Shown: positions 1 through 28,682 of the stretch, one piece after another
Numbering within the stretch: position 1 is the stretch's first letter
Layout of the letters: every line of letters starts with the position of its first letter
Assembly: GCA_900128565.1 (NCBI GenBank)
Contig: LT635976.1
Span: 1 to 28,682, forward strand
Length of the DNA stretch: 28,682 bases
Direction of reading: 5' to 3'
DNA from: Stramenopiles sp. TOSAG23-6
Lineage: Eukaryota > Sar
Position numbers and translations under genes: made by a program
Notes under the pieces: model-generated
The model's input: only the letters and a program-made list of their open reading frames with translations
Database searches by the model: none
What the model was told of the DNA's origin: nothing

Positions 1-239
1 TCTTGCAAATTGAAGAAAAAATCACTTAGGTACGGAATTTGGTACAAAAAAAAAAGAAAGAAAATCGAATTTTTTGGCCAAAGAGGTCCAACCGACAGGA
101 TTGCAAAAATGGCCAAAGTTACCGGGATTTATTTATTACTAGACATAAAAAAATTTAAAAAGACATAAACCAATAAATGGCCAGAAATTACAGTTAAAAA
201 GTTAAAAAATAAAACGTATTATTTCTTTTGTGTCATACT
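1..239 (-). other. 3' flank with a degenerate introner-like core
   Basis: This non-coding stretch lies downstream of the TGA stop of the giant gene. On the minus strand, positions about 20-56 read GTACCAAATTCCGTACC followed by TAAGTGATTTTTT, which matches the core and branch region of the intron family in this window, especially the CCAAATTCC variant in the intron at 7825-7919. A donor-like TACGTTTTATTTTTT lies at about 205-220 on the same strand. I cannot place both splice ends. It may be an old copy in the 3' UTR or the end of an intron of a gene beyond the left edge. No other gene is visible. Confidence 0.45.
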
Positions 240-6200: not shown

Positions 6201-9200
6201 CAAATCTAGCCATTGTAAGCCGAGCAACTGAACTGCCCGGGCAGCTGTCCTATTCAGATTATTCCATGAAAGATTAAGTTCTAGTAATGTAGACTGTGGG
6301 GAAACCGACAAGCTATTGGTGCCCTTCTTTTGTGCACTTGCATATGATTTTGCTCTTGTGTGTAATACCGAAAGCATCGGTTTGATGCCTGTGTCGGAAA
6401 TTCCATTGTCTGATAAATTTAGACGTATTAAATGTGGTATACCCCAATCACCTTTTGACCCACCTTTTTTTCTCTTTCCCTGTCTCTGTCGGCGAAAACA
6501 CTGTGCAAGTTGAACGACACCGGAATCTCGAAGGTTGCTTTTGCAGAGATCCAGTTCCTGTATTTGTGAATATTGCTTCAATCCAATCGACTTCAGCACT
6601 TCTATCGATTCGCTACCAACTTTATTACCTGAAAGTCCAAGTTCCATTATATCAACCGGTAGTAATTTCAAAACTTCAGCCAACAAACCATCAGTCAAAT
6701 CACAATTTTGTAATTGAAATGTCCGAAAAAAAATCATTTTGTCTAGCTTTAATGATTTCATAACCAATAGGATCTGATTAGGTGTTCCAGCAAGGGATGA
6801 TAAATTCACTTTGTTACTAACAATTCCTACATTCTGCATAATGAGAGATATCTGTGGGCATTGTTTTACCTTTTCACAGCCTAAATCATATACTTTAATT
6901 GGGTCTATCATAAAAGCATTTTCATCTTCATTTGGTACCTCTTTCTTTGATCTATGTAGTTTCTTCATGTGTATCTCTTGTCTAATTTCTTCATTACTTT
7001 GTCTAGATCGAATCGCATCTTTGGTGGAAGAAACTGCGATGGCCACCTCCGCTTCTAATTTTTTGTATTCTTCTTCCTGTTGTAACTTTTTCGCCCGTTG
7101 ACTCAATTTCCCACCGTATCTAGTTCTCCCTCGCTTCATCTGAGTTTTGGTCTTACTACTAACTGAATGTTTTGTTTTGATTTTAGAAGCACTACTCTTT
7201 TCATTATTTTTGGTTATTTTTGGCACACCCACTTTCTCGGGTTGAACAACTTCAGGCGAAGAGATTGATGAATACATTTTTTGCAGCGAGTGGCTGTAAC
7301 TACTATGTGGTCGCTTTACAATATCATCAAATCTGGCACGCGTTGTTCCATCTTCTCGGAGAAGTTCAGGCTTCACTTCTGGAAAATAGAACTTTTGACG
7401 AATCGCTGTTTGAGCTCGCAAACCTCTATTTTTATAATTATCTACAAAATTGTTGAATGATTTATGACGATATTCAGCAGCTTGCACCGCAAGAGCTTGT
7501 TCTCTCTGAAGCATCATCATTGTTGCACGTTTTGCTTTTTCCTTTGCAAGTCGCCGCTCTCGGGCAACTCGCTTCGATGCTGTTTTTGTTGATGCTTGAT
7601 TATCTTGAGTATGTTTTAAAACCTTTTCTAATAGAAGAGACGCGACACTAGGAAAGTCAGAAAGCATTGCTGAAAATCCCTTTCGATCCAAAGACAATAC
7701 TACTGCCCCGGTTTCATTTGCAATTACAGAAGCTGTACGAGGTTGACTAAAGACCAAAGCAACTTCACCAAATACAAAACCAGGTTCTAATACAGGAGCA
7801 TAGGTTACTGGGGTCCCATCTTTCATGTATTGTGAAAAAATATTTTTCATTCAAAATTCGTTAATTGTGGAATTTGGTACAAAACAAATTTAGGTAAACA
7901 ATTCAATTTTGAAACTTACATACGACCTTCTACTCTGACTACACCCTTAACTAAAATATAGAATTTGTCTCCCTGAGCACCCTGAACACAAATGCTTTCA
8001 TTTGGATTGTATGTTTCTTCAAAGAATATCCTAGATGTCTTGATCACTTTTTCAAAATCCAAACCTTCAAACATTGGTACATTCATCAACCATTTTGCTC
8101 TTTCTAAACCTGTCATTGTGAAAGTTCGCATCCCTCCACATTCTTTGAATTGAGGACTGTTTTCAACTTCGTCTTCAATTTCTCCCTCTTCGTCTTCTGA
8201 ACTAGATTCTAAATTTACACCCCTTGACTCTAGCTCGGTTTTTTTCTTCGCTTCTTTTTGTATTCTTAACTTTTCTTTTCTTTCCGCCTCTTTTTTATCT
8301 TCATTTGCTTTATAATCTTGGTCTTCTCGTTGCCGCTTTCTTTCTATGAATTCTTCATATTCTCGAAGTAACTTTAGTGATGGATTTGCTGCCTCAGCTT
8401 TGTCTCTTTCTATCAAAGCAACGGCCGCTCTTTCACGTTCCAGTTCGTCTAATACATGAGTGGCTTCAGCAGCTGCCAATGCTGCTACTTTTGCAGTAGC
8501 TCTGGCTATCTTTTTTGCTATTTTCTTCTGTTTCTCTATTGCCTTAAGGTCTAGCGCACTTGGTTCCTCCATCGTTTTTTCTTGCCTTAGAGATCGATCT
8601 ATAGATGTGCGTTCTGCGAGCTTATTTATTACCAAAAATAGTTCGAGATCCCCATTAGATATTTGAGAAACCATCGATCTAGCTTTGCCTTCTAAATTAG
8701 CTTTCAGATTAACGAGTTCTCTCTTATATCTGTTGTACCTTACGTCCCTTTCTTTCTTTTTTTGCCTTTCTAATCGCCGGGATTTCATTATTTCTGAAGC
8801 ATCCGTACACTTTGATGCTTTCTGAGTATTCTGTCTACGTCTTTCATTTGCTTCTTCTTTTTCTATTGCTTCCATTTTTTGCTCTTCAGCTTCATTTTTT
8901 TCTAAAAGATTATTGTATTTCTCAGCAACCCATGCACTCACCAATTTTTTACGTTGTTGAACTCTTATTTGATTTGAGCTACGTGGACTAAAATTTGATC
9001 CTACATGATTCGCTATTTTCTCCCACATTTTCATCGACCCGGGCAACATTCTTCGTTTCTTTCCTTTAGATTGAGCTTTCAAGTTTGGAAAAGTATATTT
9101 CCTTCCACCACGATTTTTTTTTGCTTCCAAATAACGCTTGTTTGCTCTTTGGCCTTCCCTGTCAGAGGTTTCGAAATCTCTCATCTTAAACATTGATGCA

Positions 9201-9394
9201 AGCATTCCTCTACCAGCATTTGGTCCATAGCTTTTATTTGCTTTTTCTAAATCTGATCGTGATAACTTTTTAATTGCACTGAAATCAGTACCAAAGTGTT
9301 TGTTTTCAGTTAACCAGGCCGGAAAAGATTCACTTGAGTTTTTCCTGTGATAGTTACGACTGTGCTTATCTCCTATATTGCAGTGTGAATGCAT
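240..9394 (-). CDS. giant cyclic-nucleotide-binding / leucine-rich-repeat protein (about 3019 aa, one intron)
   Basis: Exon 1 is 9394-7920 and exon 2 is 7824-240, joined across the intron at 7825-7919. The sum is 3020 codons including a TGA stop. Residues about 170-395 are a charged coiled coil. Residues about 435-575 are a cyclic-nucleotide-binding fold, with the phosphate-binding cassette FGEVALVFSQPRTA at about 510-523, including its Glu and Arg. The intron falls inside this domain, so the join restores one fold. RI-type leucine-rich repeats span about 825-1080, an acidic D/E-rich stretch about 1320-1400, and a W/F-rich beta segment about 1405-1490 that faintly recalls a carbohydrate-binding module. 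The C-terminal third carries four related EF-hand-like modules. The domain mix suggests a cNMP- or Ca-responsive scaffold, perhaps flagellar, but this is inference. The ATG at 9394 is the first in frame. The gene diverges from the MIT gene at 9627 across 232 bp. Confidence 0.85.
7825..7919 (-). other. introner-family intron in the giant cNMP/LRR gene (95 nt)
   Basis: Sense ends are GTAAGTTTC and TTTTTTCACAATACAT. The exon before it ends CGTAT and the exon after it starts GAAAG, giving the peptide join EGRM-KDGTP inside the cyclic-nucleotide-binding fold. It is the most divergent complete copy: the core reads GTACCAAATTCC and the branch-like site is ATTAAC. The intron ends in AT, or equivalently reads AT...AC if shifted by 2 nt. 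Phase 2. Confidence 0.85.
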
Positions 9395-9626
9395 TGTGTA
9401 GATAAATTCAACAAATGAAAAATGTTTTTCTTGACCTTAGCAGATAAGTACTATTAGAGACACATTACGGTATACATGCTACAGTTTCATGCATCCACAG
9501 ATCGGACATGGCCATCAAAAATCGCTCAAAAATCGCCGAGAGATCTCGATCGAGATCAAAGAAAAGTTGAAGAATTGGCCGTGGATGAAAACTTACTTTT
9601 GCAAAAACATCGAATTAATAGCATAG
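9395..9626. other. divergent intergenic region
   Basis: The 232 bp between the start of the giant gene (minus) and the MIT gene (plus) should carry both promoters. I see no recognisable element beyond short AT runs and a GATCTCGATCGAGATC inverted repeat at about 9541-9556. Confidence 0.4.
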
Positions 9627-10217
9627 ATGGCAGCATCCCCAATACATCGCATCAACTATGACGATAACCCATCTACTGCAAGATATCTTAGAAGTCAAGG
9701 TATTTTAAATTGTTCAGAGAAATTAGGGTATAATAAATTTTTTGGCAACGCTGCTAGCTTTGCTAATGACGCGTTGAAGGCTGACCGGCAGGGTCAAGAA
9801 CCGAGAGCCCTGACTTTGTACAAAAAGGGAATCGAGTACTTCATACATGCTATTAATATTGAAGACAATAAGGTAAATATTCATGGAATGCAGAGAGAAT
9901 TCAATCCTGTAATGGATCGGGCTGAAGAACTTGATAAATTTATGAAATTAATGAAAGAAGCAAAGTTATTGGGAGAGAGAGCTATTGATGCTGATAATTT
10001 AAGAAATTGGGTATTAGCTAAAGAGCTGTACGAAAATGCTGCCGAAAACCTAATCAAATCTTTGAAGCTAGTCAACAAGGATTCTCCGACCCATTCTACG
10101 TTAAAGGAAAGAGTAACTCAGTTCATTACTAGAGCAGAGGTACTTTCTCAAACACAACCACTCCCACTTATTCCGACTGCACCACCTGCCCCTCTTGAAT
10201 TTAATCCATATGCTTGA
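9627..10217 (+). CDS. tandem MIT-domain protein (paralogue 1)
   Basis: This is an intronless 196-aa protein with two alpha-helical repeats of the MIT/TPR-like kind found in Vps4-, spastin- and calpain-7-type proteins. The first, about 38-105, contains ALTLYKKGIEYFIHAI and the second, about 112-175, contains AKELYENAAENLIKSLKL. MIT domains normally bind ESCRT-III tails. The protein has no AAA+ or protease domain, so it would act as an adaptor (inference). The tail is proline-rich and ends PLEFNPYA, close to the PPAYNP motif of its neighbour. It is clearly paralogous to the gene at 10436-11125: the central stretch AKLLG-RAIDADNLRNW is shared almost exactly. The two genes converge with 218 bp between their stops. 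Confidence 0.8.
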   Translation: MAASPIHRINYDDNPSTARYLRSQGILNCSEKLGYNKFFGNAASFANDALKADRQGQEPRALTLYKKGIEYFIHAINIEDNKVNIHGMQREFNPVMDRAEELDKFMKLMKEAKLLGERAIDADNLRNWVLAKELYENAAENLIKSLKLVNKDSPTHSTLKERVTQFITRAEVLSQTQPLPLIPTAPPAPLEFNPYA

Positions 10218-10435
10218 CATTTTAGAGATGATACTATTATTCTCTTTTCATCCATGTAGATGCAAAACGTTTGCTCGAAATATATATAATTGAGTATATA
10301 TGTTATGCACAAAAAAAAAGTATAAAGTTTTTGTGTGTTTATGTGAGAAGCATCAGAGTATGATGACTATTTATATATTTTTTTTAATAAAAACTCTTTC
10401 TCATCATTAGCCCACTACTACTCAAAGATTTAAAA

Positions 10436-11125
10436 TCAATACTTCCAAGGTGGTCTTTCATTTTTCTTTGACCATCTTTTTTTTTTATGTTTGGTTGGAG
10501 TGTTCGAAATAACATTAAAAAAAGCTTTTTGTCCTCGGTGGCCGATNTCTTCTTTATTATTACTATTGACAGCTGGATTATATGCTGGAGGAGGTGGTGG
10601 GGCAGAAGCAAGAGGCAAGTTTTGTCTCTGAATATGAACATCACGAATTGCTTCTGCTCTTTGTATGTAAAGAGTTGCCCTTTCCTTTAACATGGGACGA
10701 GTCGGGGAGTCCTTGTGGACTAACTTTACGGCTCTGATAAGCTTATCAGTGGCTTTTGCGTAAAAATCTTTTGCTACTGGCCAATTTCTTAAATTATCAG
10801 CATCAATAGCTCTAGAGCCTAATAGTTTTGCTTCCGAAATAATGTCAAAGTAAATGCGAAGTTCTTCTGCTCTATTTATCATTGGACTGAACTCTCTTTC
10901 CATAGCTCTTTTACTGATTTCGTTGTCTTCGTTGGAAATTGCATATAAAACATACTCAAGTGACATCTTATACAGCTTCAAGGCAGCGGTTTCACGTCCA
11001 GCTTTGTCATTCAACAATGCTTTGTTTGAATATTCTATAGCTTTATCAAAGTGTCTGTTGTACCCCGATTTCCTCACCGTTGCTTGTCCATCTGCATACT
11101 GAATAAAATGAACTCTTGAAGTCAT
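10436..11125 (-). CDS. tandem MIT-domain protein (paralogue 2)
   Basis: This is an intronless 229-aa protein, convergent with and homologous to the gene at 9627-10217. It has two MIT-like helical hairpins, at about 25-92 (AALKLYKMSLEYVLYAI) and about 100-162 (AKDFYAKATDKLIRAVKL). A proline run with PPPPPAYNP follows at about 176-184, and a basic tail (KHKKKRWSKK) that the paralogue lacks. One N at about 10547 leaves one residue as D or E but does not affect the frame. The likely role is endosomal or ESCRT-linked binding, inferred from the MIT fold alone. Confidence 0.8.
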   Translation of the reverse strand: MTSRVHFIQYADGQATVRKSGYNRHFDKAIEYSNKALLNDKAGRETAALKLYKMSLEYVLYAISNEDNEISKRAMEREFSPMINRAEELRIYFDIISEAKLLGSRAIDADNLRNWPVAKDFYAKATDKLIRAVKLVHKDSPTRPMLKERATLYIQRAEAIRDVHIQRQNLPLASAPPPPPAYNPAVNSNNKEXIGHRGQKAFFNVISNTPTKHKKKRWSKKNERPPWKY

Positions 11126-11598
11126 GAAACTCTCAGACTATCCGAAAATTGTATTTATAATGCGTGAATGTTCTGTTTTTTCCTATATCAATTTATGCTC
11201 TCTCTGAGTACACTTACTATAAAATAGACCTTATTCAAAAAACAAATAAACGTAAATAATAATATATGCTCTAAGATCTTCAGGTTAGTAGCCTACCTAA
11301 GAGACTACCAAGCCCAAGGCTAAGAGCTCCTCGTTGTTGACTTGCCGCTTGTTGTCAAAAAAAAAAACGATATTGTTTCGCTCAAAAATTACCTAGCTAG
11401 GGTTAGGGTTAGTCAATTTTTTTCGACATCACGCCAACGAAGTCAAGAGTCAAGACTCCAAGACGAAGACTTAGTCCTTCTCAAATACAGTTTTCTCTTG
11501 AACCGAGTGTTCGGCATTCATCTCTGGCACCTTTTATACTGTATATAGTAGTTGCATCACTTCCCTGTGACATCTAGCTCAATATCAAGTTTGTTAAA
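11126..11598. other. divergent intergenic region with a short telomere-like tract
   Basis: This 473-bp gap separates the minus-strand MIT gene and the plus-strand SET gene. Positions 11398-11412 read TAGGGTTAGGGTTAG, about 2.5 units of a TTAGGG telomere repeat. No coding potential or RNA gene is apparent, and promoters for both genes are expected here. Confidence 0.5.
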
Positions 11599-13420
11599 AT
11601 GTCAAGTTCTAATAGAGAAATTGAAGGGCAGCTTGCTGCGTTAGAGATAGGCGTTGACGCCGCAAATGGGAACACGTTTGGCCCGTCCAAAGAAACTTTA
11701 GACCGTTTAAAACAGAATGATAGGGGTGGCGACGAGTTTAAAGGTGGACGGGCGGATATTCATAAATTTTCTCATCCCGTTATAGCTCAGAGAATGAGTT
11801 CTGTTGAAAATGAACAGAAGCGAGGAATGGAAGAGTTTGTAAAGTGGCTCAAGGATAATGGGGCAATTTTTCCAAATCTGTACTTTAAATGTTACTCTGA
11901 AAGCGTAAGAGGAGTCCATGCTGCCAAAACTATTTCACCATATCAACAGGTTATGGCAATTCCATTGAAATGTATAATTACAGATGAAACTGGTAGGAGA
12001 ACTCCAATGGGGCAACGTTTAGAGGCTGTTCGGCATCAACTGACAGTTCCTAACCATTGTCAAGTTATTGTTTATATGATGACAACTCGTGAGCGTGGAG
12101 ATTCCTGGTTCCAGCCTTATTACGCCACCCTACCAAAAGATTTCAATAATTTCCCTATATTTTGGACGGACGAGGAACTCTCTTGGCTGGAGGGTTCCTC
12201 CCTCGTAGAACAAATTCGAGATCGGAAGAGAAATATCAGATCGGACTATGACACCATTTGCAAAGCACTACCTGAATTTAGCAGATTTACTTTTTCTGAT
12301 TTCTTGTGGTGTCGTACGGCAGTAGGAAGTCGTAACTTCAGTATCGTCGTGAATGGTGAAAAACGTACTGCAATGGTTCCTATGGCAGATATGCTCAACC
12401 ATGCACGTTTTATTTTTTTTCAATTTCGAATTTATTTTTAGTACGAAATTTTGTACCTAACGATTTTTTTTTGAAATATTTTTCCAAAATACAGTATCGT
12501 CCTAGAGAAACAAGTTGGACGTATGACAATTCGCAAGGAGCCTTTACTATGACGTCACTAAAGATATTGTCAGAGCACAATCAGGTGATGGATTCATACG
12601 GGAAGAAATGTAATTCAAAATTTCTCTTGCATTACGGTTTCACTATTGAATGTATGTTTTATTTTTTTTCAAATTCGAATTTTTTTTTTCGTACGGAATT
12701 TTTTACCTAACAAATTTTAATTTTTTTTTTGAAATATTTTTCCAAAATACATGTAACAGAGAAAGTGATGATAAATGTCAAAATGAATTAGATATCACTC
12801 TCTCCTTAGATGAGACTGATCCATTATTTGACAAGCGCAGTTATTATGTGAATAAATCTCGAGGCTATCGTGTTACTATGAATCATGTACGTTTTATTTT
12901 TTTTCAATTTCGAAATTATTTTTCGTACGAAATTTTATACCTAATAAATTTTAATTTTTTTTTGAAATATTTTTCCAAAATACATGAAGATCGAGGTACT
13001 CAGGATGCAATGGCATATTTACGTGTTGCTGTTGCTACTTCCGATGAACTTACATCATTTAGTCGCGGATTCCAGCATTCTGTTATATCAGCTCAAAATG
13101 AGTTAGCAGCACTTTTATTAATGGCTCAATTTTCAACGGAAGTATTGAGTGGGTACCCGAAGACAATGTCAGAAGATAATGCTGCACTTGCTGATGATGG
13201 ACTGGACCCCTTTTGTAATAAGCGCCACGCAATAATTGTGGTGAGAGGGGAGAAACAAATATGTCACTTTTATATTAAGCTTGCACAGGCTGCATCTCAG
13301 TTGCTGAAACTGCCCACAATGGAACGAAAACTTTTATTAAGTGAAAAATATACCGCAGACGATGATATTTCCAGGTTTTTGACTGCTACATGTCGTTCGC
13401 TTTTGTGTAAAGGATTATAA
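11599..13420 (+). CDS. SET-domain protein methyltransferase, SETD3 / Rubisco-LSMT class (509 aa, four exons)
   Basis: Exons are 11599-12402, 12495-12651, 12753-12886 and 12986-13420, giving 510 codons with the stop. The SET core begins near residue 100 (RGVHAAKTI). It contains the AdoMet-site motif MADMLNH, with N267 and H268 as the last residues of exon 1, and continues in exon 2 with YRPRETSWTYDN and DSYGKKCNSKFLLHYGF, which supplies the catalytic tyrosine region. Exon 4 (about 366-509) is helical and fits the Rubisco-LSMT substrate-binding domain. The family methylates lysine or histidine on non-histone proteins such as actin or Rubisco, and the substrate here is unknown. All three introns belong to the repeat family, and the first cuts immediately after the NH motif. 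The ATG at 11599 sits in an AAAATG context. The gene converges with the EF-hand/C2 gene. Confidence 0.87.
12403..12494 (+). other. introner-family intron, SET gene intron 1 (92 nt, GC-AG)
   Basis: The ends are GCACGTTTTATTTTTTTTC and TTTTTCCAAAATACAG, with the exact core GTACGAAATTTTGTAC followed by CCTAAC. Removing GC...AG yields LNH-YRPRETSW and keeps the SET-domain histidine. Shifting 2 nt left to AT...AC would give NQ instead. This copy therefore fixes the splice register for the family. Phase 0. Confidence 0.9.
12652..12752 (+). other. introner-family intron, SET gene intron 2 (101 nt)
   Basis: The ends are GTATGTTTTATTTTTTTTC and TTTTTCCAAAATACAT, with a branch-like CCTAAC. The upstream exon ends GAAT and the downstream exon starts GTAAC, so ATGTA is repeated at both edges. 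Splicing to the next AG (12758) creates an in-frame stop, so the AT end is needed. Phase 1. Confidence 0.9.
12887..12985 (+). other. introner-family intron, SET gene intron 3 (99 nt)
   Basis: The ends are GTACGTTTTATTTTTTTTC and TTTTTCCAAAATACAT, with branch-like CCTAAT. CATG is repeated at both edges. The join MNH-EDRGTQDAM keeps frame, whereas the nearby AAG would frameshift. The 3' half is nearly identical to intron 2 of the same gene. Phase 0. Confidence 0.9.
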
Positions 13421-13472
13421 GTTTATTGCTACGTATTGTTCACTTTTCTTTAAAGGATTATAAATTTACTAG
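13392..13472. repeat. imperfect direct repeat over the SET gene stop codon
   Basis: The last about 33 nt of the SET gene plus its stop (GTTCGCTTTTGTGTAAAG then GATTATAAGTTTA) recur just downstream as GTTCACTTTTCTTTAAAG then GATTATAAATTTA. The copies lie about 45 nt apart. This looks like a small tandem duplication of the 3' end. Confidence 0.6.
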
Positions 13473-13644
13473 GTGGCAAGATCATAGGGCTACTGTTTGA
13501 TATTTCGGCAGTGTAAAGCAGACCATTACTTTAACACAAAATCTACAAAAATACACTAATAAAAAATTGTCTGTTTAGAGATTAAAATTAGTGTGTTTTA
13601 TTTACTTCTTTAATTTTCTTCCTAGTGTTGACATCATCATCGTT

Positions 13645-15897: not shown

Positions 15898-16238
15898 TAT
15901 TTTAGACTATCATATCAATGTATACCAATATAGGCCTACGTACTTCCTAACTAAGGCTATATAATAAGTCCAAATTAACGGAAGGAAAAGTTCAACGGAT
16001 TATTCTGCTACCTGCAAATTTTCTGCCTGCAGTGGCAGTCAGTCGCAGTCGCAGTCCAGTCTTCGATTTTTCGAATTTTATTTCGGCTTTATTTCGCCCG
16101 CATTGGCAATCGACGAACCCCTCTCTCGAGCTAAAAAGAGGAGGACATTTTTGTTCAACTTATTATTGCTCTCGCTCATTGCATATAATATTGACATTAT
16201 AAAGAAATAGTGGCACTTTCATAGATTGATAGTTTGAA
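15898..16238. other. divergent intergenic region
   Basis: The 341 bp between the EF-hand/C2 gene and the USP39 gene contains a short iterated CAGTCGCAGTCGCAGTC tract at about 16035-16055 and otherwise unremarkable AT-rich DNA. I see no gene or RNA. It should hold both promoters. Confidence 0.45.
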
Positions 16239-17954: not shown

Positions 17955-18119
17955 TTTTCCCTCTTAATCCCTCTTAATTTACTGTTTTGTCGTGTTTATT
18001 TTGGAATAATAAAAAAGAAAAAAAATTACAAAAAGAGTTATTGAAAATCCATTCATTTATTTCTATAAAATATTTAATATTTGTCATATTATCATGAAAT
18101 TATTCTGAGTTATGTTGCT
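17955..18119. other. convergent 3' intergenic spacer
   Basis: The 165 bp between the stops of the USP39 gene and the RJL gene is very AT-rich, with A-runs consistent with cleavage/polyadenylation signals for both. No gene is seen. Confidence 0.4.
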
Positions 18120-18674: not shown

Positions 18675-18898
18675 ATTTCAATACTCGATGCAATGCATTT
18701 AATCATATTTTGATTGAAAGCCAAAAGTGCCATTGCGTTTCTACGATTATTACACTTGCGAAAGCTTTTCTGTTTAAAATTTATTTTTTTGAGCCCAAAA
18801 GTTTATCTGAAAGGCTGTGTAACGTTCGTAACGTTATACGTTTAATCTAATTTAACGTACACATTTTTATTTTTTTTATTTATTTTGCAAACGAAAAA
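18675..18898. other. spacer between J-protein and RJL genes
   Basis: This 224-bp head-to-tail spacer on the minus strand must hold the 3' end of the J-protein mRNA and the RJL promoter. It contains an AACGTTCGTAACGTTATACG iteration at about 18820-18840. Nothing else is recognisable. Confidence 0.4.
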
Positions 18899-21757
18899 TT
18901 AAACCATAATAAAGATAAAAAGAAAAATTAATTGTCTGATCGGACCTCTGACTTCATATGTACATAATAAAGATTCCCAAATAATGCCAAATAAAGCGAC
19001 AACCCAGAAACAAGCTAAGCTTCCGTTCATAGCATTTAATTTATGAGTGCATATCATGTTTTGTAAAACATATTTTTTTTTGGTTTAAAAAAAATCGTTA
19101 GGTACAAAATTTGGTATGAAAAAAAAATAAATTTGAAATGAATGATGAAAACATACATAAAACACTGAACTAAACCTGATATAGTCAATACTGTTCGTAT
19201 AAAAATTAAGTACGAACTTCTGTATTTCTTACGAGCTAATATTGCGCGTCTTGTCGCAAGAGCCCATTGAAACGTAAACATCAATGGAAGTATTAATAAA
19301 TACATTCTAAAAAATAATGTAACGACAGAAGCCCAAGAACCAAACAAATATTGTGAAAAATATTTTTTTTTAGTAAAAAAAAATGTTAGGTACAAAATTT
19401 TCTATGAAAAAAAAAAAGTACATTCGAAATTAATGATGGTAACGTACAACATTCTGAAGGGACCACCAGCACAATCGCCAACACCATTTCCTGCGCGAAG
19501 AGCTACATGTTCAAGAGTGCTAAATTGAACGCGCGAACTTGAACTCATCATATCCGAATATTCCTTAGGTATAAAGTTTTGTATGAGAGAATTTATGTAG
19601 CTAGTCACTTGAGAAAATCCGCCAAATATTTCCCCAAAACTACCTGGTAATAACTCATGTAAAATAATACGCATCGAAATACCTGAAGAAAAAGTACCAA
19701 TGAAGCCAATTTCATTGCCCAAGCCTCCTACCGAACAAAATGTAGCTCCCAGGAGTGCCAAATTAGCTAATTGTATGTATTGTAAAAAATATTTTACATT
19801 CAATTTCGTTGTTACGTACAAATTTTCATAGTAAAAAAAAAAAGATCAATTTTAAATTCAATTATGAAAAAGTACATCGAATCCTTAAACCCCCAATGCC
19901 ATTCTAATCGGAGGACATCATTAATACCAGCATTTTCTGCATGTATTTTGGAAAAATATTTGAAAAAAAAAATCGTTAGGTACAAAAGTTCGTACGAAAA
20001 AAAAATCGATTTTTTTGTTAAAAAAAAAAATAAAACAAACATGGCTATGGATCTCCTGACTTTGTATGCCTAGTACAGTGTGCGCAAGGCCACATAATAA
20101 AATAAGAAAATGTACAGTATCCGGAAATGCAAATTTTGCCACCCAATTTCGTAACACGTGGCCAATAAAAACAGATGAAAGAAAACCATGTATTTTGAAA
20201 AAATATTTCAAAAAAAAAAAAAAAATTGTTAGGTACAAAATTTCGTACGAAAAATAAATTCGATTTTTTTTGTGAAAAAAAAAAATAAAACATACATTCA
20301 CTGTGAAGCCAGTAAAAATGAGCATCAACAGTGGAATGATAGGCTTTGAAAGAGTCAAAAGTAAATCAAACTGACAATGCATAGATGCACAATATCGACC
20401 TTTTGTACCTTTCCGAACATCAGTCCTGTGTTTGTAAAAGAATATGTCAAATTCGAAATTTCTTACGTATGAAATTTTCTATAAAAAAAATAAATTTGAA
20501 ATTCATGAAAAAAACATACATGGAAGGTCTTCGTCCAATGACAGAGAATAAGGCACTCGTACCACTAATTGCAAATACGTCTAGCATTTCACGTTCTTCC
20601 TGAATGATAATTTGTGATTCAACATTAGCCTTAAATTGAGCTTCCATAACGTTCGTGAGGGCATCTAACCGTTTCACCTCCCGTTGATTGACTGTATCAC
20701 TAGCTTTTTTCACTGCATTTTTTCTTCGAATCCCACCGGCCATTTTTTCAACATGTTGATTTAATTCCCTCAGCCTTTTCTGATATTTTAAAGTTAGAGC
20801 ATTTGATTTACTATCATCATTGTGTGTCATCATTAAACTACCGAAAATATCCCGAGAACCAATTGAAGACATGTAACGCTGTTGCTGCACAAATACAATG
20901 AAACGGACAAATGGAGAAATAAAAAGCTGAAATATTGTGGGAAGAGGTCCGACCAAGATCTGTTGTACAGCTGAAAATATCTTTTTCAAAAATGATTCGT
21001 GTTCTCTTCCACCACGAAATATACCGCGGCACAAATTAAATAAATGCCACAGCAAGAGTAAAAGACCAATTGTTGGCATTAAGCCGTTTTCTAATGTCAC
21101 AATCCCGTAGGTAAAATCTTTCAAAAAATAAGCAACTTCTGAAAAAAAATACGTAGAACTTTCCATTGTTGAGAATGTTGCTGAGAATGACGAAAAATAA
21201 TCAAGGACTTCAGCTTCCAACCCAAAGAGATGTGCTACACTATAGCAAGATGCAGTCTTTTTTGGTCTACTGTGACGCAGCATCCCTAGGGCTTCCTCGC
21301 GAGCGGCGCTTATTTGAGTGAAGAATGCTTCACCCATGGATTGATGATCTTTACCTAAACGAACAAGGCGATCTGGGTGGGTGCAAAAGGATACATCACG
21401 GTATGCTTTCGCAACATCTCCGCGAGAAAATGGTGACTGTACACCCAATAGAGCACAAGGTGAGCTATATATAATGTAAACTTTGACTAATACATATAAA
21501 CCCATCAAAAATACTAACCACCAAGGCGCTATGATGGAATTGTATTTCCTCGTTCCAACTATAACAGGTAATTCATCCATTTTCTTGAAATCCTCAGGCA
21601 CTTTGGGACTTTCAGTTTGCTTAGTAGTTGCTGTTGTTGCTTTTGGTGGTGATGCCTCAGAAGCTTTGCTTGATTCATCAGAAGTCGAAGCCTTTTGCTC
21701 TTTATCTACAGCTTTTAAAGCAGCTCTTTTGCGAGCTTTTGCGCGACTACCTCCCAT
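18899..21757 (-). CDS. multi-pass membrane J-domain protein (750 aa, seven exons)
   Basis: Exons are 21757-20520, 20425-20296, 20187-20041, 19940-19876, 19774-19448, 19345-19157 and 19055-18899, giving 751 codons with a TAA stop. The frame closes exactly over all six introns. The N-terminus is Lys/Ala/Ser-rich and cytosolic-looking (1-70). A membrane segment (about 78-98) is followed by a J-domain-like region (about 100-170) with HPD at 127-129, the Hsp70-stimulating motif. Further hydrophobic segments include GLMPTIGLLLLLWHLF and at least six after residue 400 (for example IIPLLMLIFTGFTV, FLILLCGLAHTVLG, LACFWVVALFGIIW). It recalls ER J-proteins in layout but is not Sec63 by sequence, so the precise family is unknown. 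All six introns are introner-family copies, the highest density in the window. Confidence 0.83.
19056..19156 (-). other. introner-family intron, J-protein intron 6 (101 nt)
   Basis: The ends are GTATGTTTTCATCATTC and ATGTTTTACAAAACAT, core TACCAAATTTTGTACC followed by TAACG. The join is QCF-M-ICTHKLN. Phase 2. It is closest to intron 5 in the donor-proximal CATCATT block and the A-rich 3' tract. Confidence 0.88.
19346..19447 (-). other. introner-family intron, J-protein intron 5 (102 nt, ends TT)
   Basis: The ends are GTACGTTACCATCATT and TTTTTCACAATATTT, with CCTAAC. The upstream exon ends TT instead of AT and the intron ends TT: the terminal dinucleotide follows the exon dinucleotide. The join is RM-L-FGSWASVV. 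Phase 2. Confidence 0.87.
19775..19875 (-). other. introner-family intron, J-protein intron 4 (101 nt)
   Basis: The ends are GTACTTTTTCATAATTG and ATTTTTTACAATACAT, with branch-like CGTAAC. The join is DS-I-QLANLALLG. It belongs with introns 1, 5 and 6 in a subgroup with a CATNATT-type motif after the donor. Phase 2. Confidence 0.88.
19941..20040 (-). other. introner-family intron, J-protein intron 3 (100 nt)
   Basis: The ends are GTTTGTTTTATTTTTTTTT and TTTTTCCAAAATACAT, core GTACGAACTTTTGTAC, branch-like CCTAAC. Splicing to the AG six bases into the exon (ATGCAG) would frameshift into a stop, so the AT end is needed. The 5' half shares a T-run/AACAAAAAAATCGA block with intron 2, which suggests local copying. 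Phase 0. Confidence 0.92.
20188..20295 (-). other. introner-family intron, J-protein intron 2 (108 nt)
   Basis: The ends are GTATGTTTTATTTTTTTTT and TTTTTTCAAAATACAT, with the exact core GTACGAAATTTTGTAC and CCTAAC. A T-run/CAC/A-run hairpin lies near the 5' end and is shared with intron 3. No AG lies near the acceptor: the exon begins GGTTTTC. Phase 0. Confidence 0.92.
20426..20519 (-). other. introner-family intron, J-protein intron 1 (94 nt, GT-AG)
   Basis: The sense 5' end is GTATGTTTTTTTCATG and the 3' end is CTTTTACAAACACAG. It is a divergent copy with branch-like CGTAAG, and the core is degraded. The upstream exon ends CCAT and the downstream exon starts GACTG, giving S-M-T-D. It is one of only two copies ending in AG. 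Phase 2. Confidence 0.85.
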
Positions 21758-21968
21758 TGAGTATTCTATGTTACTATGATAATCTTAGACGAATGGAATG
21801 CCCAAATCGCGTAATAAAAATTTTGCGACACTACTCGTGACCAAGGTCGATGTCGATGAACCGTGGTTCTGCGGAATGAATTATTTTTTTTTTTCGTTTG
21901 TTTGTTTGTTGTTTCGAAACGACCGTTAATTTCCGTTATTATAGCGTAGTAAAACTACGTAGAAAACC

Positions 21969-22470
21969 CATGGTTTCCGGGTTTTTACGTTTTACGCATA
22001 AATGCATTTACACGAAAAACTTAAAAGTGCCTTTTATCATAAATGACTTTATGGCCATTTCAAAAACACCCTTTTACCATAAATTAATTTATGCATAAAT
22101 GCATTTATCATAATGACTTTATGGCCATTTCAAAAACACCTTTTTACCATAAATTTATTTATGCATAAATGCATTACGGAATAAAGTGATATTTATGGTA
22201 TATTTATGTCTATGTAAAGCGTATTTATTGTGGTTTTATGCCTTGAAAAACACTAATTTTACCATAAATGGATTTATGATAATGCATTTATCATAATGAC
22301 TTTATGGCCATTTCAAAAACACCTTTTTACCATAAATTTATTTATGCATAAATGCATTTATCATAATGACTTTATGGCCATTTCCAAATCCATAAATTGC
22401 GGATTATTTACCAAGATAAAAAATAAAAACCTCGAATAAAGTTTTTATGGATAAAAACCCGGAAACCATG
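21969..22470. mobile_element. non-autonomous MITE-like element, 19-bp TIRs, 8-bp target duplication
   Basis: The left end CATGGTTTCCGGGTTTTTA (21969-21987) is the perfect reverse complement of the right end (22452-22470). The element is flanked by the direct repeat AGAAAACC at 21961-21968 and 22471-22478, an 8-bp target-site duplication. The interior has no ORF of note and is made of 70-bp repeats. An 8-bp duplication fits hAT-type transposases, but the termini do not settle the superfamily. Perfect TIRs and duplication imply recent insertion. Confidence 0.9.
22035..22390. repeat. 70-bp repeats inside the MITE
   Basis: The block GACTTTATGGCCATTTC occurs at about 22045, 22115, 22298 and 22368. 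Each adjacent pair has a 70-bp period and the pairs are separated by 183 bp of partly related sequence. Each unit also carries TTACCATAAAT and the palindrome ATGCAT in TTATGCATAAATGCATT, which could form hairpins. Confidence 0.85.
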
Positions 22471-22646
22471 AGAAAACCTATTTAATAGTAATAGTATTTA
22501 TTTAATTTAAGGCTACACGAATCACCCGAGTTTGAACTTTGAAGCTTGTAATGAAGTGTATCGTTATTTTATGTACATGAAATCCGTCGAATCATGAACA
22601 GATGAGTATTAATCAATAGTATATCTTTACCTTTTTTGTATAAAAA

Positions 22647-25600
22647 ATGGCTTCTGTGCTAGCCAAAGTTGATCTTACTTCAATGACTGCCTTACGACGC
22701 GAATTACAGAAACGAAACATTAGCACAACCACACCAAACTTAAAAGGGGAAGAGAGAAGAAAAGAGCTGGTGTATCGCTTAAAAGAAGTGCTTAATATCA
22801 TTGAATCAGAAAGTGATAGTAGTACAGAAGACTCAAGGAATCTATCAGAGCAAATAAGTAAACCGATAGACTGGAATAGTATGTTATCGATTCGTAAACA
22901 TCTTCTTGCTCGTAATCTTAGTGTATCAACACCAGGCGCGACTAATGAGGAACGTAGAGAGGTCTTAAAATGTCGACTCAAGGCATTTTTATCAAAGAAA
23001 AATGAGAAACGCAGAGATGTCGTAAAAGGTCGACTCGAGGCGTTTTTATCAAAGAAAAAAGATTCTTTGCCAAATAAAAATGTGCAGTTGTCACTACAAA
23101 CTGGTTTATGGAACAAACCAAAACAGGTTCCAGCAAAGAAAGCGGCTAGTTCGGCTCGGTCTGAAACTCGATTAAATGCCGACAGAGATGCTACTATAGT
23201 CAAGAATAACTCTACACTTACATCAGTAGATCAGTCATTAGGGTTAGGGTTAGGGCATGATTTTGTACCAAGTAGTGAACTTTTATCTTTACAAAAAAAA
23301 TTACAAAAGCAAAAAGATGAAATCGCGACAATAGAAAAGCGACGAAGAGATATTGTCTTCAAGAGACTTAGTGGTGCTGAAGGCACTGAACTCTTTGAAT
23401 TCATGAATGCATGTACGTTTTATATGAATTTCTAATTTATTTTTTTTCATACGAAATTTCGTACCTAACAAATTTTAGTTTTTTTTTTTTTGAAATATTT
23501 TTTCACAATACATTTCGATCGGTTAAACACGAATTGGATAGAGTTTGTAAGTGGAAAAAACGCTTTATTGATTCCAGTGCGCTCTGCATTGCAGCATATG
23601 CTCTTGGAACTGAATCAAAGAATAATGAAGAAACCGGTACAACAACCCGATTCCATGTCGATGTATGTTTTACTTTTTTTAAAATTCGAAAACTTTTTTC
23701 GTACGAAAATTTGTACCTAACGATATTTTTTTTGAAATTATTTTTCCAAAATACATGTATTACGTGTCCGTCTTGAGGAAGCTATTGTAAAGATGAAGAA
23801 ATCGTTATCTGATAAGCGAATGTCGGTTATGGCAGAGGAACGTCATAATCCACTCACTGGGGTTATTGTACAACGAGAAAAACAAGAAACAATTTCACAT
23901 CTTCAGGAAAAAGTTGAGTCTCTTTATGACTATGAATTAGATACACATATACACCACAAGAAGGAGAAACGCCAAGATAGAGAAATGAAACAAAATTCGG
24001 ATCGAAAGTCCAAATTACGAGTGTCAACTGAGTCAAATAAAAATAGACATGGAGGGAAACATAGTCGTAAAAGCCTTCGAAAAGGTGGTGCAGCCGCTGT
24101 TGCAAGACGTGCTGCAACTGGTCTTTCAGATTACTCTGCCCAGAAGGCAATGAGAGCAGCACGTGTTCGACTTGCTGCTAAATTTAACGATCAACTTTCA
24201 CGATCAGGTTCGGCAAACCCAGTGGGGAGAAATAGATTATCCGTAGTTCCTGGAGGATCACCAGTAGTACAACTTCGAGGAAATGATATTATTGCTCCAC
24301 CTCCCTCTGGCGATTCCTTTACAGAGACAAATAATAGTAAATTCGGAAATAGATATGCGAAGTTACCCCATTCTCGTCGTTTTGATTTTGATAATAGTGA
24401 TAGCATACCTCCTAGAATATCAGGAATTTCTGCGTCTCGCAATGAGGAGTCCATCGTATATCAAAATCCGGATAAATGTTGGCGTCAAGCATTTGTAAAG
24501 TANATAGCGAAACAAGATATAAAGGGCGCATCAACACTTTTCATGAAAGGAATTGCATTACATCCATATCACCCAGAATTGCTTCATCAATATGCTAACT
24601 TTATTCGCACAACTACAAGAAATTCAGAACTTGCGTCGAATCTCTATCTGCGAGCTCTTGAGGCATTCAGCAAAGGTCGAAATACTAATTTAAATGATGC
24701 AGAACGGTATAGTGCAGGGATTACTATGTTTGATCACGGAATGCACATGCAGGCATGTGGACAAACTGAAGCTGCTTTAAATTCTTTTAAAAAAGCTGTC
24801 GTAGCTTGTCCGAATCATCCTAGATTACTAGCAAAGCTGGCTGTTACNTTACACCGAATTCTCCCAAGCGAAAAACAAAATGATCGCCCGCCTTCACGTG
24901 CAAAGAATCATACAGATATAGTGACAAATTCGCGGACACCTATAAAAGAGAAGTTGCGTGTTCAAGACTTATACGAGCGGGCTTTTGTTGCTGATAGATT
25001 TAATGTGAAAAATTTAGTGAACTATGCACTCTTTTCTCAACGGTTATTAAAAAATAATAACCTTGCCGAAAAGTTGTTTCTTCAGGCATCCATATTAGAC
25101 CCATTTAATGGTGGTATTCTTTCAAACTTTGCTGCTTTCCTCGTGAAGGAAAAAAATGATTATGACCGAGCAGAAGCCTATTATAGAAGGGGTATTGAGA
25201 ATGATCCAAAACATGCTGGATGTATAGGCAATTATGCATCATTTCTCTGGAGAGTGCGAAATGATACTAAAAGTTCACACGCTTACTTTGAAAAGGCAAT
25301 GCAACTATCTCCGAATCATGCAAATAATCTGGGTAAATTCGCATCATTGCTCAAAAGTTGCAAAAAGTTTAAAGAAGCAGAAACTTTATACGAAAGAGCT
25401 ATTGCTGCTGATCCAGCAAATGCAACAATCCTCGGCAACTTTGCTAATTTTGTAAAGAAAATTCGTGGAGATAATAAATATGCAAAGAATTTATATTTAA
25501 AAGCTTTACAAATCGAACCGAATCACCGAATGAACCGTCGCAATTACGGACTACTTTTACGCGATTGTCCTGAACTTCGCGATGGGCCTAGTCGAGTCGT

Positions 25601-25655
25601 GTATCGAAGTGAATTTAGTAACACCGAAGGAAAGATTGCATCTCGAGGAAAATAA
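22647..25655 (+). CDS. SAP-like / coiled-coil / TPR-repeat protein (937 aa, three exons)
   Basis: Exons are 22647-23412, 23514-23662 and 23757-25655, giving 938 codons with the stop. The N-terminus has two SAP-like helix-turn-helix units (about 10-45 and 78-115: L-x-x-R-x-L-x-x-R-N-[IL]-S...ERR...RLK), and a 19-aa element of the second is duplicated (57-bp DNA repeat). A coiled coil lies at about 210-240. A basic Arg/Ser/Gly-rich region follows, then about 540-930 consists of TPR/HAT-type repeats near 37 aa, such as AEKLFLQASILDPFNG and AETLYERAIAADPANA. SAP motifs usually bind DNA and TPRs bind proteins, but no specific function is recognised. At about 24503 a codon reads TAN, which is Tyr or a stop. 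Another N at 24847 is silent (ACN, Thr). The ATG at 22647 is in a good AAAATGG context. Confidence 0.8.
22954..23066 (+). repeat. 57-bp tandem duplication in the SAP/TPR gene
   Basis: The blocks encoding RREVLKCRLKAFLSKK and RRDVVKGRLEAFLSKK are adjacent DNA copies with a 57-bp (19-codon) period, seen from GTCGACTC at 22972 and 23029. The frame is kept. Confidence 0.8.
23238..23255 (+). repeat. three TTAGGG telomere-type units within a coding exon
   Basis: Positions 23238-23255 are exactly (TTAGGG)3, translated as part of LGLGLG in the SAP/TPR protein. A shorter tract lies at 11398-11412. Confidence 0.9.
23413..23513 (+). other. introner-family intron, SAP/TPR gene intron 1 (101 nt)
   Basis: The ends are GTACGTTTTATATGAATTTC and ATTTTTTCACAATACAT, core TACGAAATTTCGTACC followed by TAACA. 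The join is FMNA-F-RSVKHELD. The exon after it starts TTCGA, so only CAT is repeated at the edges. Phase 1. Confidence 0.9.
23663..23756 (+). other. introner-family intron, SAP/TPR gene intron 2 (94 nt)
   Basis: The ends are GTATGTTTTACTTTTTTT and TTTTTCCAAAATACAT, core GTACGAAAATTTGTACC followed by TAACG. The edges share ATGTAT (6 nt). The join is FHVD-VLRVRLEEA. Phase 0. Confidence 0.9.
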
Positions 25656-25791
25656 AGTATGACGTATGTACAATTTTGTGTTTCTCAATTTAGATAAAGT
25701 TTTGAATATATACTAATTAGATTCTTTTGTATTGTAAAGTAATATTAGGTTAAAAGTTTATGAAGACATTTTAGATTATTTACGAAAGTCT

Positions 25792-28627
25792 TTATTGATT
25801 ATTAACTCGTTGTTCTATTCTACTACTTGTAGGGCGACTACCTAAAGGAGTAATAATACCATCACCCATACGTCGCAGCACTTCTCGGCTTTTCGGTCGA
25901 TGTGATCCCGGGAATGAATCATGTTGACTTTTCAATGAAAAAGAAAACTCTGGAAAAAATACAGCTGGCGACGACGATTCTTTTGTCATATCTTCAGGTA
26001 GACTCCAAAGTCCATCATTATTTACGTCATCTTTATCAATTTCATCATTATTGACAATAAATCTATGAATGTCATCTTCTTGATCGAAATCTGTTTTATC
26101 TTGTCCGAATTTACTAAATTTGCGAAGTCCTTTAAATCGTTTTGTTGCTCCAAAAACAAGTTTTGCTTTTGAAGCTTGGATTTTCGATTTAGCACGACCG
26201 ATTGCTACTTTCTCTCGAACAAGAAAATTTAAACGTTGTGTAAAACCCATTCCCGCAATATTTGCTTTACGCTCATTTTTTTTTCTTTCTATCTCTGCTT
26301 GACGCGCTAAAGCTGCTTTTTCTTTTTTCCNCGCTTTGTNTTCATCGATGTCTATTTTTTCTTGTTCTTTAACCTTCTTCAATTCCATCAGAATCAAATC
26401 AACTGCATCCTCAATATTATTATTGGATAGTTTGAGCGCGGCCATATAAGTTGGTCTCTCAAATGCCTCAAAAAAGTCTTCTAGTTCTTCAGGTATCACT
26501 GCTTGATCATATATTGGTTCACCGAATGAATCACTGGACTTATTTGATTTAGAACTAATAAAAGAAGCATTTGAATCAGGTCGTTGGTGTGATTCTTTTG
26601 AATTTGGTCGAAATTGTGGTTCAACATCTGAGTGCAAAGAAATTGTATTAGTAAGATTTTCTTTTGCTAAAGATAATGATTGATCAACCTTTTGACGTCT
26701 CCTAAATGTATGACGTTTTTTTTTACGCCAATGGAGTTCATACAATAGTTGCGTTGCTAGCAACTCTCTCTTTTGTCTTTTTAGTCGGCGCCGATATTTA
26801 TTATTATGTTTTCGAACTCTTTCAACTTTATTTCGTAACATGTTCCGTTTGTGTTGTGCAATCTCTCGATTTGGTTCCCTTCTGTAATAAATACGAATCA
26901 CTCTTGGAGGTTTCCAATCGCACTGATCAAGAAGTTTATTATAGTAAAAGGAAACACCGCTATTGTGTTTCATCATAACCCATCCCTTCCACTCCGTTTC
27001 GTCTCGCTCAATTTGAGATACTTTAACGAGTGTGGCCCACACTTCTCGCATTTCCTTATCTCCAAAACTTACCATTGACATTGCCTTTTCATCTTCTATA
27101 TTTGTATCGAGTAACTGAAACCGTTGATCTGGTCTTGTTCGGCTCACCAAGACCCCAGGATGTGGACATTCATCCTGTACTGTTTTGGAGAGTGAATTAT
27201 AGTAAAATATGCAGTGCTGTGACGGATTTACCACTGGTTTCCAACTGAGTAATAACTTATGAGGATCATATTCCTCAGTATTTGCTTGCTCACTGGATTG
27301 TTGCAAATCATTGTTGCCATCACTATTATGTTTTCTGATAGACAGAGGAGGGATACCAGAAAGAATTTTTTGCTCTGAAGAATATTTCTTCTTTGTTTCT
27401 GAATCTGATGTATTTGCATGGACATTTGCTTCTTTCTTTTGTATTTCATTTGTATTATGTGTATCCAATGCCAGTTCCACAGAAATACATTTATCAATGT
27501 TATTTTTTTCTTCTTTTATTTCATTTATGAATTCCCTTGTATCTTCTATGATACCATTCTTTTCATTTTCACACCCAAACTTTCCCTCGCTAGAATTTGC
27601 ATTACCTTTTCGACCTGTACTATTAAAATCTAAACGATGACTTGATGGTCGGGAATGAGTGCTTACAGGTCTAGATCTAGGTCGGTGTGTAATCCTCGTA
27701 CTTTTCGGACGAGAATGAGAATGGGTGCTTACAGGTCTAGATCTAGGTCGCCGTACAATCCTCGTACTTCTTGGACGCCTCGTACTTACTGGCCGAGAAT
27801 ATGACTGTGGAAGTGTCCCGTGAACTGTAGATGGTCGAGATACAATAGACGTTGTACGAACGCTACTAGGTCTAGATAAACTACTATCTCCTAATGATCC
27901 AGAGCCTATAAGGTCTCTTATTGAGCGACTAGATGTTGGCCTTTTACCAGAGACAATATTCATGAGACCACGTTTGCGTGGTGTTGATAATATAGTAGAT
28001 GATCTATATTCATTTTTATCTTCTGTATCTGCACTTAATGTAGTCAAATATGTCCTTGATGTGCCAGGTCGCGAATTCGCCGGAAAACCAAGTATTTCCC
28101 GCTGAAGTTTTTCTTCAGCCATAACGTCTGGGTCAACAGCAGACCGAAGCGCACGCTTAACTAGCAGCATCGATTCATCATCACACCATCGATTCGCCGA
28201 AATATCAATGTGAAGGGGTTGGTCAGAAGGTCGGCGGTTCAATGAAAGGCTAGCTGCCATTTCTGCAGCATTGGTATTACTTAAATCACAGTCACACATC
28301 TTCAAAATACCAAGGGAAAGTGCAAGAGGTGCCCCCCAACCAATGATACCAGCACCACACCCAAGTTTCTCATTCCCACACAAATTAAGCTCAGTCAAAC
28401 CAACGTTTTCAGCAAGTCCTTCTCCAATACCTTCAGCACTGTGTAATGTGAGGCTACAAGAAACCAGCTGCAGTAATTGCAACACTTGATTGTATTCAAG
28501 CAAATACTGTAAGGCTTTGCCAATTCCTGGACCTGCTAGAACATTCGATGATAAATCTAATCTAATTAAGTATGGATTACGCCATATTGACTGTAGTAAC
28601 ATAAAACACCCATCTGGTGAACCAGGC
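25792..28627 (-). CDS. LRR / WW-like / UBA-like protein (C-terminal about 944 aa, 5' part outside the window)
   Basis: The 5' end is missing: the exon begins at 28627 behind an introner-family intron that runs off the right edge. The first about 170 residues are RI-type leucine-rich repeats (LIRLDLSSNVL, LTELNLCGN, LHIDISANRW). About 230-345 is Ser/Arg/Pro-rich with a 22-aa repeat (RPRSRPVSTHS). Two WW-like units follow: about 456-492 (SWKPVV...IFYYNSLS) and a better one at about 540-575 (WKGWVMMKHNSGVSFYYNK...W-x-x-P). About 600-640 is strongly basic, and about 709-745 resembles a UBA helix bundle (YMAALKLSNNNIEDAVDLIL). LRR plus WW plus UBA suggests a scaffold linked to proline-rich and ubiquitin ligands, by inference. 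Two Ns near 26332-26340 leave two residues unresolved. It converges with the SAP/TPR gene across 136 bp. Confidence 0.75.
27658..27790 (-). repeat. 66-bp tandem repeat in the LRR/WW/UBA gene
   Basis: The block GCTTACAGGTCTAGATCTAG (plus strand) recurs at 27661 and 27727, a period of 66 bp or 22 codons, encoding the RPRSRPVSTHS repeat. The frame is kept. Confidence 0.8.
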
Positions 28628-28682
28628 AAGTATTTTGGAAAAATATTTCAAAAAAAAATCGTTAGGTACAAAATTTCGTACG
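28628..28682 (-). other. introner-family intron, 3' part, cut by the window edge
   Basis: In sense, the visible part starts CGTACGAAATTTTGTACC, continues TAACGATTTTTTTTTG and ends TTTTTCCAAAATACTT. It is an exact core copy and ends TT, like J-protein intron 5. The exon then begins GCCTGG. The donor and upstream exon lie outside the window. Confidence 0.85.

Follow-up and report, generated by a model that had tools for sequence, protein, structure and literature searches.

In this study, we describe a family of short introns in the 28,682-nt contig C26 of Stramenopiles sp. TOSAG23-6 (the whole stretch that was analysed, hereafter the window), which belongs to an assembly of 8.03 Mb in 408 contigs. 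We consider it highly probable that these introns are introners that spread in the manner of a DNA transposon, and that a 2-bp target-site duplication supplies their 3′ splice site. While the 5′ end is GT in nearly all copies, most members end in AT instead of AG. This reading is built on what we observed of family membership, genome-wide copy number, a 2-bp repeat at the intron ends, restoration of reading frames and, for two conserved proteins, where the cut lies.

A previous reading of the window, made from the letters alone (hereafter the sequence-only reading), had described twelve complete introns of 92-108 nt and a thirteenth truncated at the edge, all of one family, in five genes on both strands and always in sense. 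All were present as described; it had overlooked that they lack a 3′ AG. The introns of the window, with the basis of each placement, are the following:

7825..7919, minus strand: family intron, an old divergent copy, GT...AATACAT (GT-AT), in a cyclic-nucleotide-binding protein gene (nhmmer)
11599..13420, plus strand: SETD3-like gene with three introns, relatives in the Rubisco LSMT substrate-binding family (protein search, alignment)
12403..12494, plus strand: SETD3-like gene intron 1, GC...AATACAG (GC-AG), asymmetric repeat AT/AG (profile; conserved H of NH|Y)
12652..12752, plus strand: SETD3-like gene intron 2, GT...AATACAT (GFTIE|CNRE gapless at the junction against 10 relatives)
12887..12985, plus strand: SETD3-like gene intron 3, GT...AATACAT (TMNH|EDRGT gapless at the junction)
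19056..19156, minus strand: membrane-protein-like gene intron 6, GT...AAAACAT (profile, frame)
19346..19447, minus strand: membrane-protein-like gene intron 5, GT...AATATTT, repeat TT/TT (profile, frame)
19775..19875, minus strand: membrane-protein-like gene intron 4, GT...AATACAT (profile, frame)
19941..20040, minus strand: membrane-protein-like gene intron 3, GT...AATACAT (profile, frame)
20188..20295, minus strand: membrane-protein-like gene intron 2, GT...AATACAT (profile, frame)
20426..20519, minus strand: membrane-protein-like gene intron 1, ending ...ACACAG (GT-AG) (reading frame)
23413..23513, plus strand: TPR gene intron 1, GT...AATACAT (profile, frame)
23663..23756, plus strand: TPR gene intron 2, GT...AATACAT (profile, frame)
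28628..28682, minus strand: family intron truncated at the contig end, 3′ part present, ...AATACTT (profile, 3′ block)
22..55, minus strand: degenerate core-like stretch, perhaps a relic, whose intron ends are not recognisable and which was not counted (nhmmer, 17.5 bits)

The genome-wide search that the sequence-only reading had proposed confirmed that the family is abundant. Three of the 13 window introns have its core, GTACGAAATTTTGTAC, in exact form; with up to three mismatches, 24 matches were found over both strands of the window, against 0.46 expected from shuffling, the core being nearly its own reverse complement, so that the two strands double-count it. In the assembly, the core with up to two mismatches matched 1721 + 1674 times, while the reversed pattern did so 9 + 16 times. 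The exact 14-base 3′ block of class A gave 258 + 251 = 509 matches and that of class B 99 + 94 = 193, against 0 for either reversed block. We also built a family profile on the window copies and refined it with nhmmer on 200 kb from other contigs; 73 matches were obtained in this DNA and the window, amplification duplicates included. Density is uneven, six of the 20 sampled 10-kb stretches (L017, L021, L022, L026, L027 and L028) being without a match. Scaling the core matches to the window (14 matches at 10 places) gives ~2,400 places, and scaling 47 non-duplicate profile matches in ~175 kb gives ~2,100 copies, both figures being inflated by duplicated contigs. The genome thus contains hundreds of copies, probably about two thousand.

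Raw copy counts are inflated because some contigs are duplicated: C2, C4, C27, C37 and C43 are mirror images, and C13/C14 and C275/C276 are twins. This suggests that the assembly stems from whole-genome-amplified single cells, and such contigs resemble the products of multiple-displacement amplification. C13 and C14 run in parallel at a constant 2-base offset among the matches listed, with no polymorphism between them. End and identity statistics refer to 58 unique full copies, and excision tests to 48 unique full-length copies.

By script, the 5′ end is GT in 56 of the 58 copies; the others are the window copy at 12401 (GC) and L011 273, which was anchored as GC and reads better as AT|GAATG. 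The donor hexamer is GTATGT in 31 copies and GTACGT in 11. The canonical 3′ AG is lacking, since even when the cut is allowed to slide only 3/58 copies can be written as GT/GC-AG. Among 100 matches listed of the 509 of class A, the dinucleotide after ATAC is AT in 84, AC in 4, AG in 4, TT in 3, GT in 2, and CT, AA and GG in one each; among 100 listed of the 193 of class B, it is AT in 65, GT in 13, TT in 11, AG in 3 and others in 8. Once duplicates are removed, AT accounts for 73/85 (class A) and 59/90 (class B) of the matches listed, and AG for 3 and 3. The dinucleotide that precedes the GT is the same as that which follows ATAC in 44 of the 58 copies, a number that 20,000 shuffles, with a mean of 31.2, never reached. 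These matched pairs comprise 36 AT/AT, 5 TT/TT, 1 GG/GG, 1 CT/CT and 1 AA/AA; by eye and outside this count, the truncated L034 copy has AG/AG, and hence reads GT-AG. The end repeat would represent a 2-bp target-site duplication with a preference for AT. Most copies are GT-AT introns whose last two bases look like a duplicated target.

These pairs also bear on the route of spread. Reverse splicing of excised introns, an RNA route without DNA insertion, would place copies in sense in genes as a matter of course. This route is unlikely, however, as it makes no target duplication and the last two bases should stay AT whatever the target, while TT/TT, GG/GG, CT/CT and AA/AA pairs occur, together with the AG/AG of L034.

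The copies themselves indicate common descent. The sequence-only reading took them as one family of very similar copies; one family stands, and at least two classes can be distinguished among the 58 copies (..CCAAAATAC in 21, ..CACAATAC in 21, other in 16). Variants of the 5′ and 3′ parts are linked, TTTTA going with CCAAAATA and TTTTC with CACAATA (counts 20/8/1/16, Fisher p = 2.8e-5, on the 45 typed copies; the 13 rows that could not be typed were excluded). Identity of the 5′ spacer is 0.70 within classes, against 0.58-0.59 after shuffling and 0.62 between classes. Similarity ranges from pairs that are 95.6% identical at different loci to barely recognisable copies, and the nearest neighbour is at least 85% identical in 25/58 copies. 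Outside the shared motifs, identity over all classes is near background (0.60 against 0.565 shuffled), and many copies are therefore old. Altogether, the introner-like spread that had been proposed is well supported by the 2-bp repeat, the linked variants and the near-identical pairs, while the qualifier "recent" applies to a part of the copies only, 25/58 having such a close neighbour.

It could be argued that these are ordinary introns kept alike by an unusually long splice signal and not mobile copies. The low inner identity over all classes is in line with this, as are very old copies that keep mainly the donor and the ...ACAT end: a degenerate intron of L023 (between 1577 and 1691) still reads GT...ACAT and has no profile match, and the fourth L044 intron is similar. 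We regard this explanation as unlikely, because matched non-AT dinucleotides at both ends are no splice signal, and 5′ and 3′ variants are linked in copies that reach 95.6% identity at different loci. Copies are also enriched at contig starts among those listed (10/100 core places lie at most 60 bases from one), as expected if near-identical copies break the assembly.

Some copies have an unusual structure. In L010 (7483-7678), two family introns stand back to back with zero exon bases between them, as if one copy had inserted at the AT ending another. In L037 (146-279), the branch-site region is tandemly duplicated inside the intron (two GTACCTAAC blocks). In L034 (829-966), the AG/AG copy with its canonical GT-AG reading has an internal A/T expansion, and the profile matches its 3′ half only.

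A perfect duplication lets the cut slide between GT-AT, TG-CA and AT-AC, and its position was settled with asymmetric copies in two conserved proteins. In SETD3-like intron 1 (AT/AG), only CAT|GCACG...ACAG|TAT preserves, in the NH motif, the H that 10/10 aligned relatives have. In the MAPK-like gene of L040 (GT/AT), only CGT|GTACA...ACAT|GAT keeps HRD, which is gapless there against ERK1. The cut is therefore at GT and not at AT...AC, since the asymmetric SETD3 (NH|Y) and MAPK (HR|D) copies need it. U12-type introns have AT-AC or GT-AG ends and a ATATCCTT-like donor, a combination that the family copies do not show. Indeed, while 23/58 copies can also be written as AT-AC through sliding of the repeat, it is very unlikely that they are AT-AC introns of the minor or major spliceosome, cut two bases upstream (AT|...AC): SETD3 intron 1 would then change the H of the 10 relatives to Q, the L040 intron would change HRD to HHD, the TT, GG, CT and AA copies cannot fit, and the donor resembles the U2-type GTATGT and not the U12-type ATATCCTT.

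Reading frames and protein domains suggest that the segments are excised. The excision tested runs from GT through two bases past (A)ATAC. Afterwards, the sense strand has an open frame of at least 300 nt in 47/48 copies and of at least 450 nt in 44/48, against 5/48 and 1/48 in antisense, and the single copy that fails touches the end of its locus. Frames of at least 1000 nt were obtained in 39/48; random excisions on a random strand (n=600) gave at least 300 nt in 48% and at least 1000 nt in 30.5%. The exact cut yields the longest frame in 38/48, the alternatives being a cut longer by 1 or 2 nt or none at all. The resulting 47 introns in 30 frames are distributed over phases 0/1/2 as 15/14/18. 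They conform to what defines introners, highly similar introns in unrelated genes, and Pfam families differ among the genes that hold them.

In the window, splicing of 7825..7919 opens a frame of 9099 nt (7608 and 1572 when the cut is shifted by 1 and 2 nt, 66 unspliced), and the cNMP_binding domain is continuous across the junction. Removing the six introns of the membrane-protein-like gene gives one 750-codon frame, which for 20426..20519 is kept by the ACACAG end and not by the end projected from the profile; a Pfam search with this product was without match. The SETD3-like protein is continuous over its joins when aligned with ten relatives. Beyond these genes, the SNF2 motif ILADE|MGLGKT is joined without gap in alignment to CHD1, an XPD/FANCJ-type helicase has its domain continuous over two of three joins, and asparagine synthase (Asn synthase), RING, TBC, Kelch and kinase domains are likewise continuous. 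The family segments thus appear to behave as introns that lie in sense in genes and whose removal restores the frame.

Frame restoration is also a property of the internal eliminated sequences of Paramecium, which have 2-bp TA...TA direct repeats, are AT-rich and transposon-derived and show no orientation preference. While the 2-bp direct repeats, short AT-rich units and restored frames of our family recall them, removal from the DNA and not from the RNA is most improbable, given the sense frame in 47/48, the donor, branch site and T-tract in intron order, the canonical GT-AG intron of L045 and the GT-AG members of the family itself, repeats that are AT, TT, GG, CT and AA and not the Paramecium-type TA, and the fact that programmed DNA elimination is not known in stramenopiles.

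Several observations weigh against the proposed duplication and excision. First, the two dinucleotides differ in 14/58 copies by script; by eye, several of these are mis-anchored (L011 273, L015 3257, L035 1081, L003 2779 and window 20521), and others are real mismatches. Second, several asymmetric copies, with GT/AT and AT/AC pairs among them, cannot place the cut, the alternatives being synonymous (L019 2674, L024 6914, L036 963 and L041), and for L012 1907, L015 249, L033 and others the cut is not decidable. Third, terminal inverted repeats amount at best to GTAY/RTAC plus 13 and 11 of 24 ungapped identities between the A/T-rich ends, and no transposase or longer autonomous copy came to light, no search having been aimed at one; to this is added the near-background identity of the whole set. 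Fourth, in 10/48 copies the cut used does not give the longest frame; among these, one touches the locus end, one (window) has a different 3′ end and one is the back-to-back pair. Finally, by a codon-score test, both flanks look coding in 29/48, against 70% of random 100-nt segments. We judged this test too strict for membrane and fast-evolving genes, because the membrane gene of the window failed it, and preferred reading frames.

We propose the following mechanism. The element would be a non-autonomous unit of ~90 bp that carries a strong donor (GTATGT or GTACGT), a near-palindromic core followed by a branch-site-like CCTAAC, and then a T-rich 3′ tract ending in ATAC. Moved by a putative trans-acting enzyme, it would insert in sense in coding sequence with a 2-bp target-site duplication, preferably at AT. 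Splicing would then remove GT...AC together with one copy of the duplicated dinucleotide and exactly restore the original mRNA, the 3′ splice site being whatever the target supplied, usually AT and rarely AG. The excess of AT may stem from a preference at insertion, from selection for copies that can be spliced, or from both. Removal would be ensured by a U2-type spliceosome that tolerates non-AG 3′ ends. The family donor presumably fits the usual U1 match, unlike that of euglenid-type introns. Folding of six window introns revealed no unusual stability (z -1.97 to 0.02) and no consistent hairpin joining the ends.

A PRP8-type PROCN domain lies in an uninterrupted 2021-codon frame, and a spliceosome therefore exists. 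Rfam searches of the assembly for U1, U2 and U6 gave nothing credible (for U6, three matches below the cut-off, best E 0.106), and a human U2AF1 query found no candidate; neither result implies absence, the completeness of the assembly not being known. Pattern searches of the assembly for U6/U2 cores gave nothing credible either, which again does not imply absence: two U6-like matches had 3 mismatches each, and one of them lies antisense in a long WD-repeat-like reading frame. We give even chances to a broader proposal, in which the spliceosome would read the 3′ end from the branch site and the ATAC tract that the element brings along, the final dinucleotide mattering little. The introner would then need no AG and could insert at many dinucleotides, above all NT; as the family filled the genome, the 3′ rule of the host would have moved from AG to mainly AT.

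How far the family accounts for the introns of this genome was assessed on protein-kinase genes, a sample drawn without reference to the element. A frame-gain scan for unrelated introns, which returned mostly intergenic-looking noise, had been dropped in favour of split kinase domains. Kinase domains that were split or stop-bearing in a six-frame search were considered and 11 stretches taken (C296, C54, C106, C12, C372 and others were left out). Thirteen introns were placed by domain continuity and kinase motifs, with Pfam on seven spliced products; the first two introns of L044 were placed by eye and the other eleven joins by script. Ten introns are GT/GC-AT (one each in L037, L038, L040, L041 and L047, two in L043 and three in L044), one is GT-AA (L046) and two are GT-AG (the first of L044 and that of L045); L039 is without intron and L042 gave no placed intron. 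A match to the family profile overlaps 11/13, the L045 intron and the fourth of L044 having none at E <= 1. The latter nevertheless ends in CACAATACAT. The L045 intron (141-275, minus strand, in C275/C276) is 135 nt long, interrupts a kinase gene (FQD|LKPEN), has canonical GT-AG ends and is unrelated to the family. AG is therefore still used, and canonical splicing coexists in the genome. Thus, the suggestion that the family is the main source of introns is plausible, as it supplies most, and not all, introns of this small sample, while the remark that no unrelated intron was found may hold in the window and fails genome-wide.

Other features concern the host and the neighbourhood. In the SETD3-like protein search, the nearest named proteins were those of Hondaea, Aplanochytrium and oomycetes, ranked after environmental and EukProt proteins; judging from this one gene, the host is perhaps an uncultured MAST (marine stramenopile) group. 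One relative of the SETD3-like protein, P0005, has an insert of ~28 residues (alignment columns ~480-510) that resembles an in-frame read-through intron and sits where the window gene has no intron. Exact family blocks of 22, 22 and 20 bases had 0 matches each in viral_contigs, from which records very near this genome were possibly left out; at the strictness of exact blocks, viral carriage thus leaves no apparent sign. By eye, the adjacent intronless genes at 9627-10217 (plus strand) and 10436-11125 (minus strand) are paralogue-like and in opposite orientation (REFNPVMDRAEEL / REFSPMINRAEEL). Intergenic AT-rich repeats with CATAAATGCATTTATCATAATGACTTTATGGCCATTTC units, also seen by eye, occupy 22040-22390, and a fragment at 115-230, near the left contig end, is perhaps similar.

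The family couples two open questions, namely the origin of introns in bulk and the reason why nearly all introns end in AG, and it could reveal how cells cope with introns that depart from the normal splicing rule. Because the copies are numerous, vary in their 3′ dinucleotide and are otherwise similar, this genome offers a ready-made series of mutants for studying how 3′ splice sites are chosen. In practice, most introns of this type would be missed or misplaced by annotation that takes GT-AG for granted.

Huff et al. 2016 reportedly described introners that co-opt splice sites. In titles and the beginnings of abstracts, with subscription papers mostly outside this scope, we found no genome with GT-AT introners, and such introns go unmentioned in the accessible parts of papers devoted to assemblies from single cells of uncultured marine stramenopiles (PMC5269757, PMC5778133, PMC8163842). 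As far as the accessible text of each source goes, four systems can be compared with ours. Like the introns of diplonemids and euglenids, the family introns are short and off the GT-AG rule; in the euglenid type, a secondary structure joins the intron ends without U1 pairing (PMC12621601), whereas the six folded window introns are not unusually stable. A genome-scale departure from GT/AG is shared with Fritillaria borealis, in which less than 10% of introns adhere to GT/AG and a duplicated U2AF recognises non-canonical 3′ ends (PMC13326754). There, it is handled by the U2-type spliceosome; our family retains the 5′ GT and deviates at the 3′ end. In the dinoflagellate Amoebophrya, more than 60% of introns are non-canonical, and introner elements, defined by inverted repeats of 8-20 nt, are non-GT-AG and have exon/intron borders spanned by direct repeats of 3-5 nt (Farhat et al. 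2021, PMC7789003). While non-GT-AG introners with direct repeats at their borders are thus common to both, the dinucleotides are diverse at both ends in Amoebophrya; here, in a host that appears to be a stramenopile, the GT donor and branch block differ rather little between copies, and it is mainly the last dinucleotide that varies. A parallel in design is found in the introners of Gozashti et al. 2022 (PMC9860276), which occur as numerous near-identical introns across unrelated genes, with target-site duplications in some families, one splice site borne by the element and the other derived from the duplication, and mRNA length mostly unchanged. In Chrysochromulina, the introner has a 4-bp target-site duplication and no terminal inverted repeat, carries the 5′ site and co-opts the 3′ site; the accessible main text gives GY/AG as splice-site nucleotides and does not refer to stramenopiles, MAST or single cells (PMC9860276). 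Our family shares with these introners the near-identical copies in unrelated genes and the pairing of a carried site with one co-opted from the duplication, and differs from them in having a 2-bp duplication and, usually, AT in place of AG as the co-opted 3′ site.

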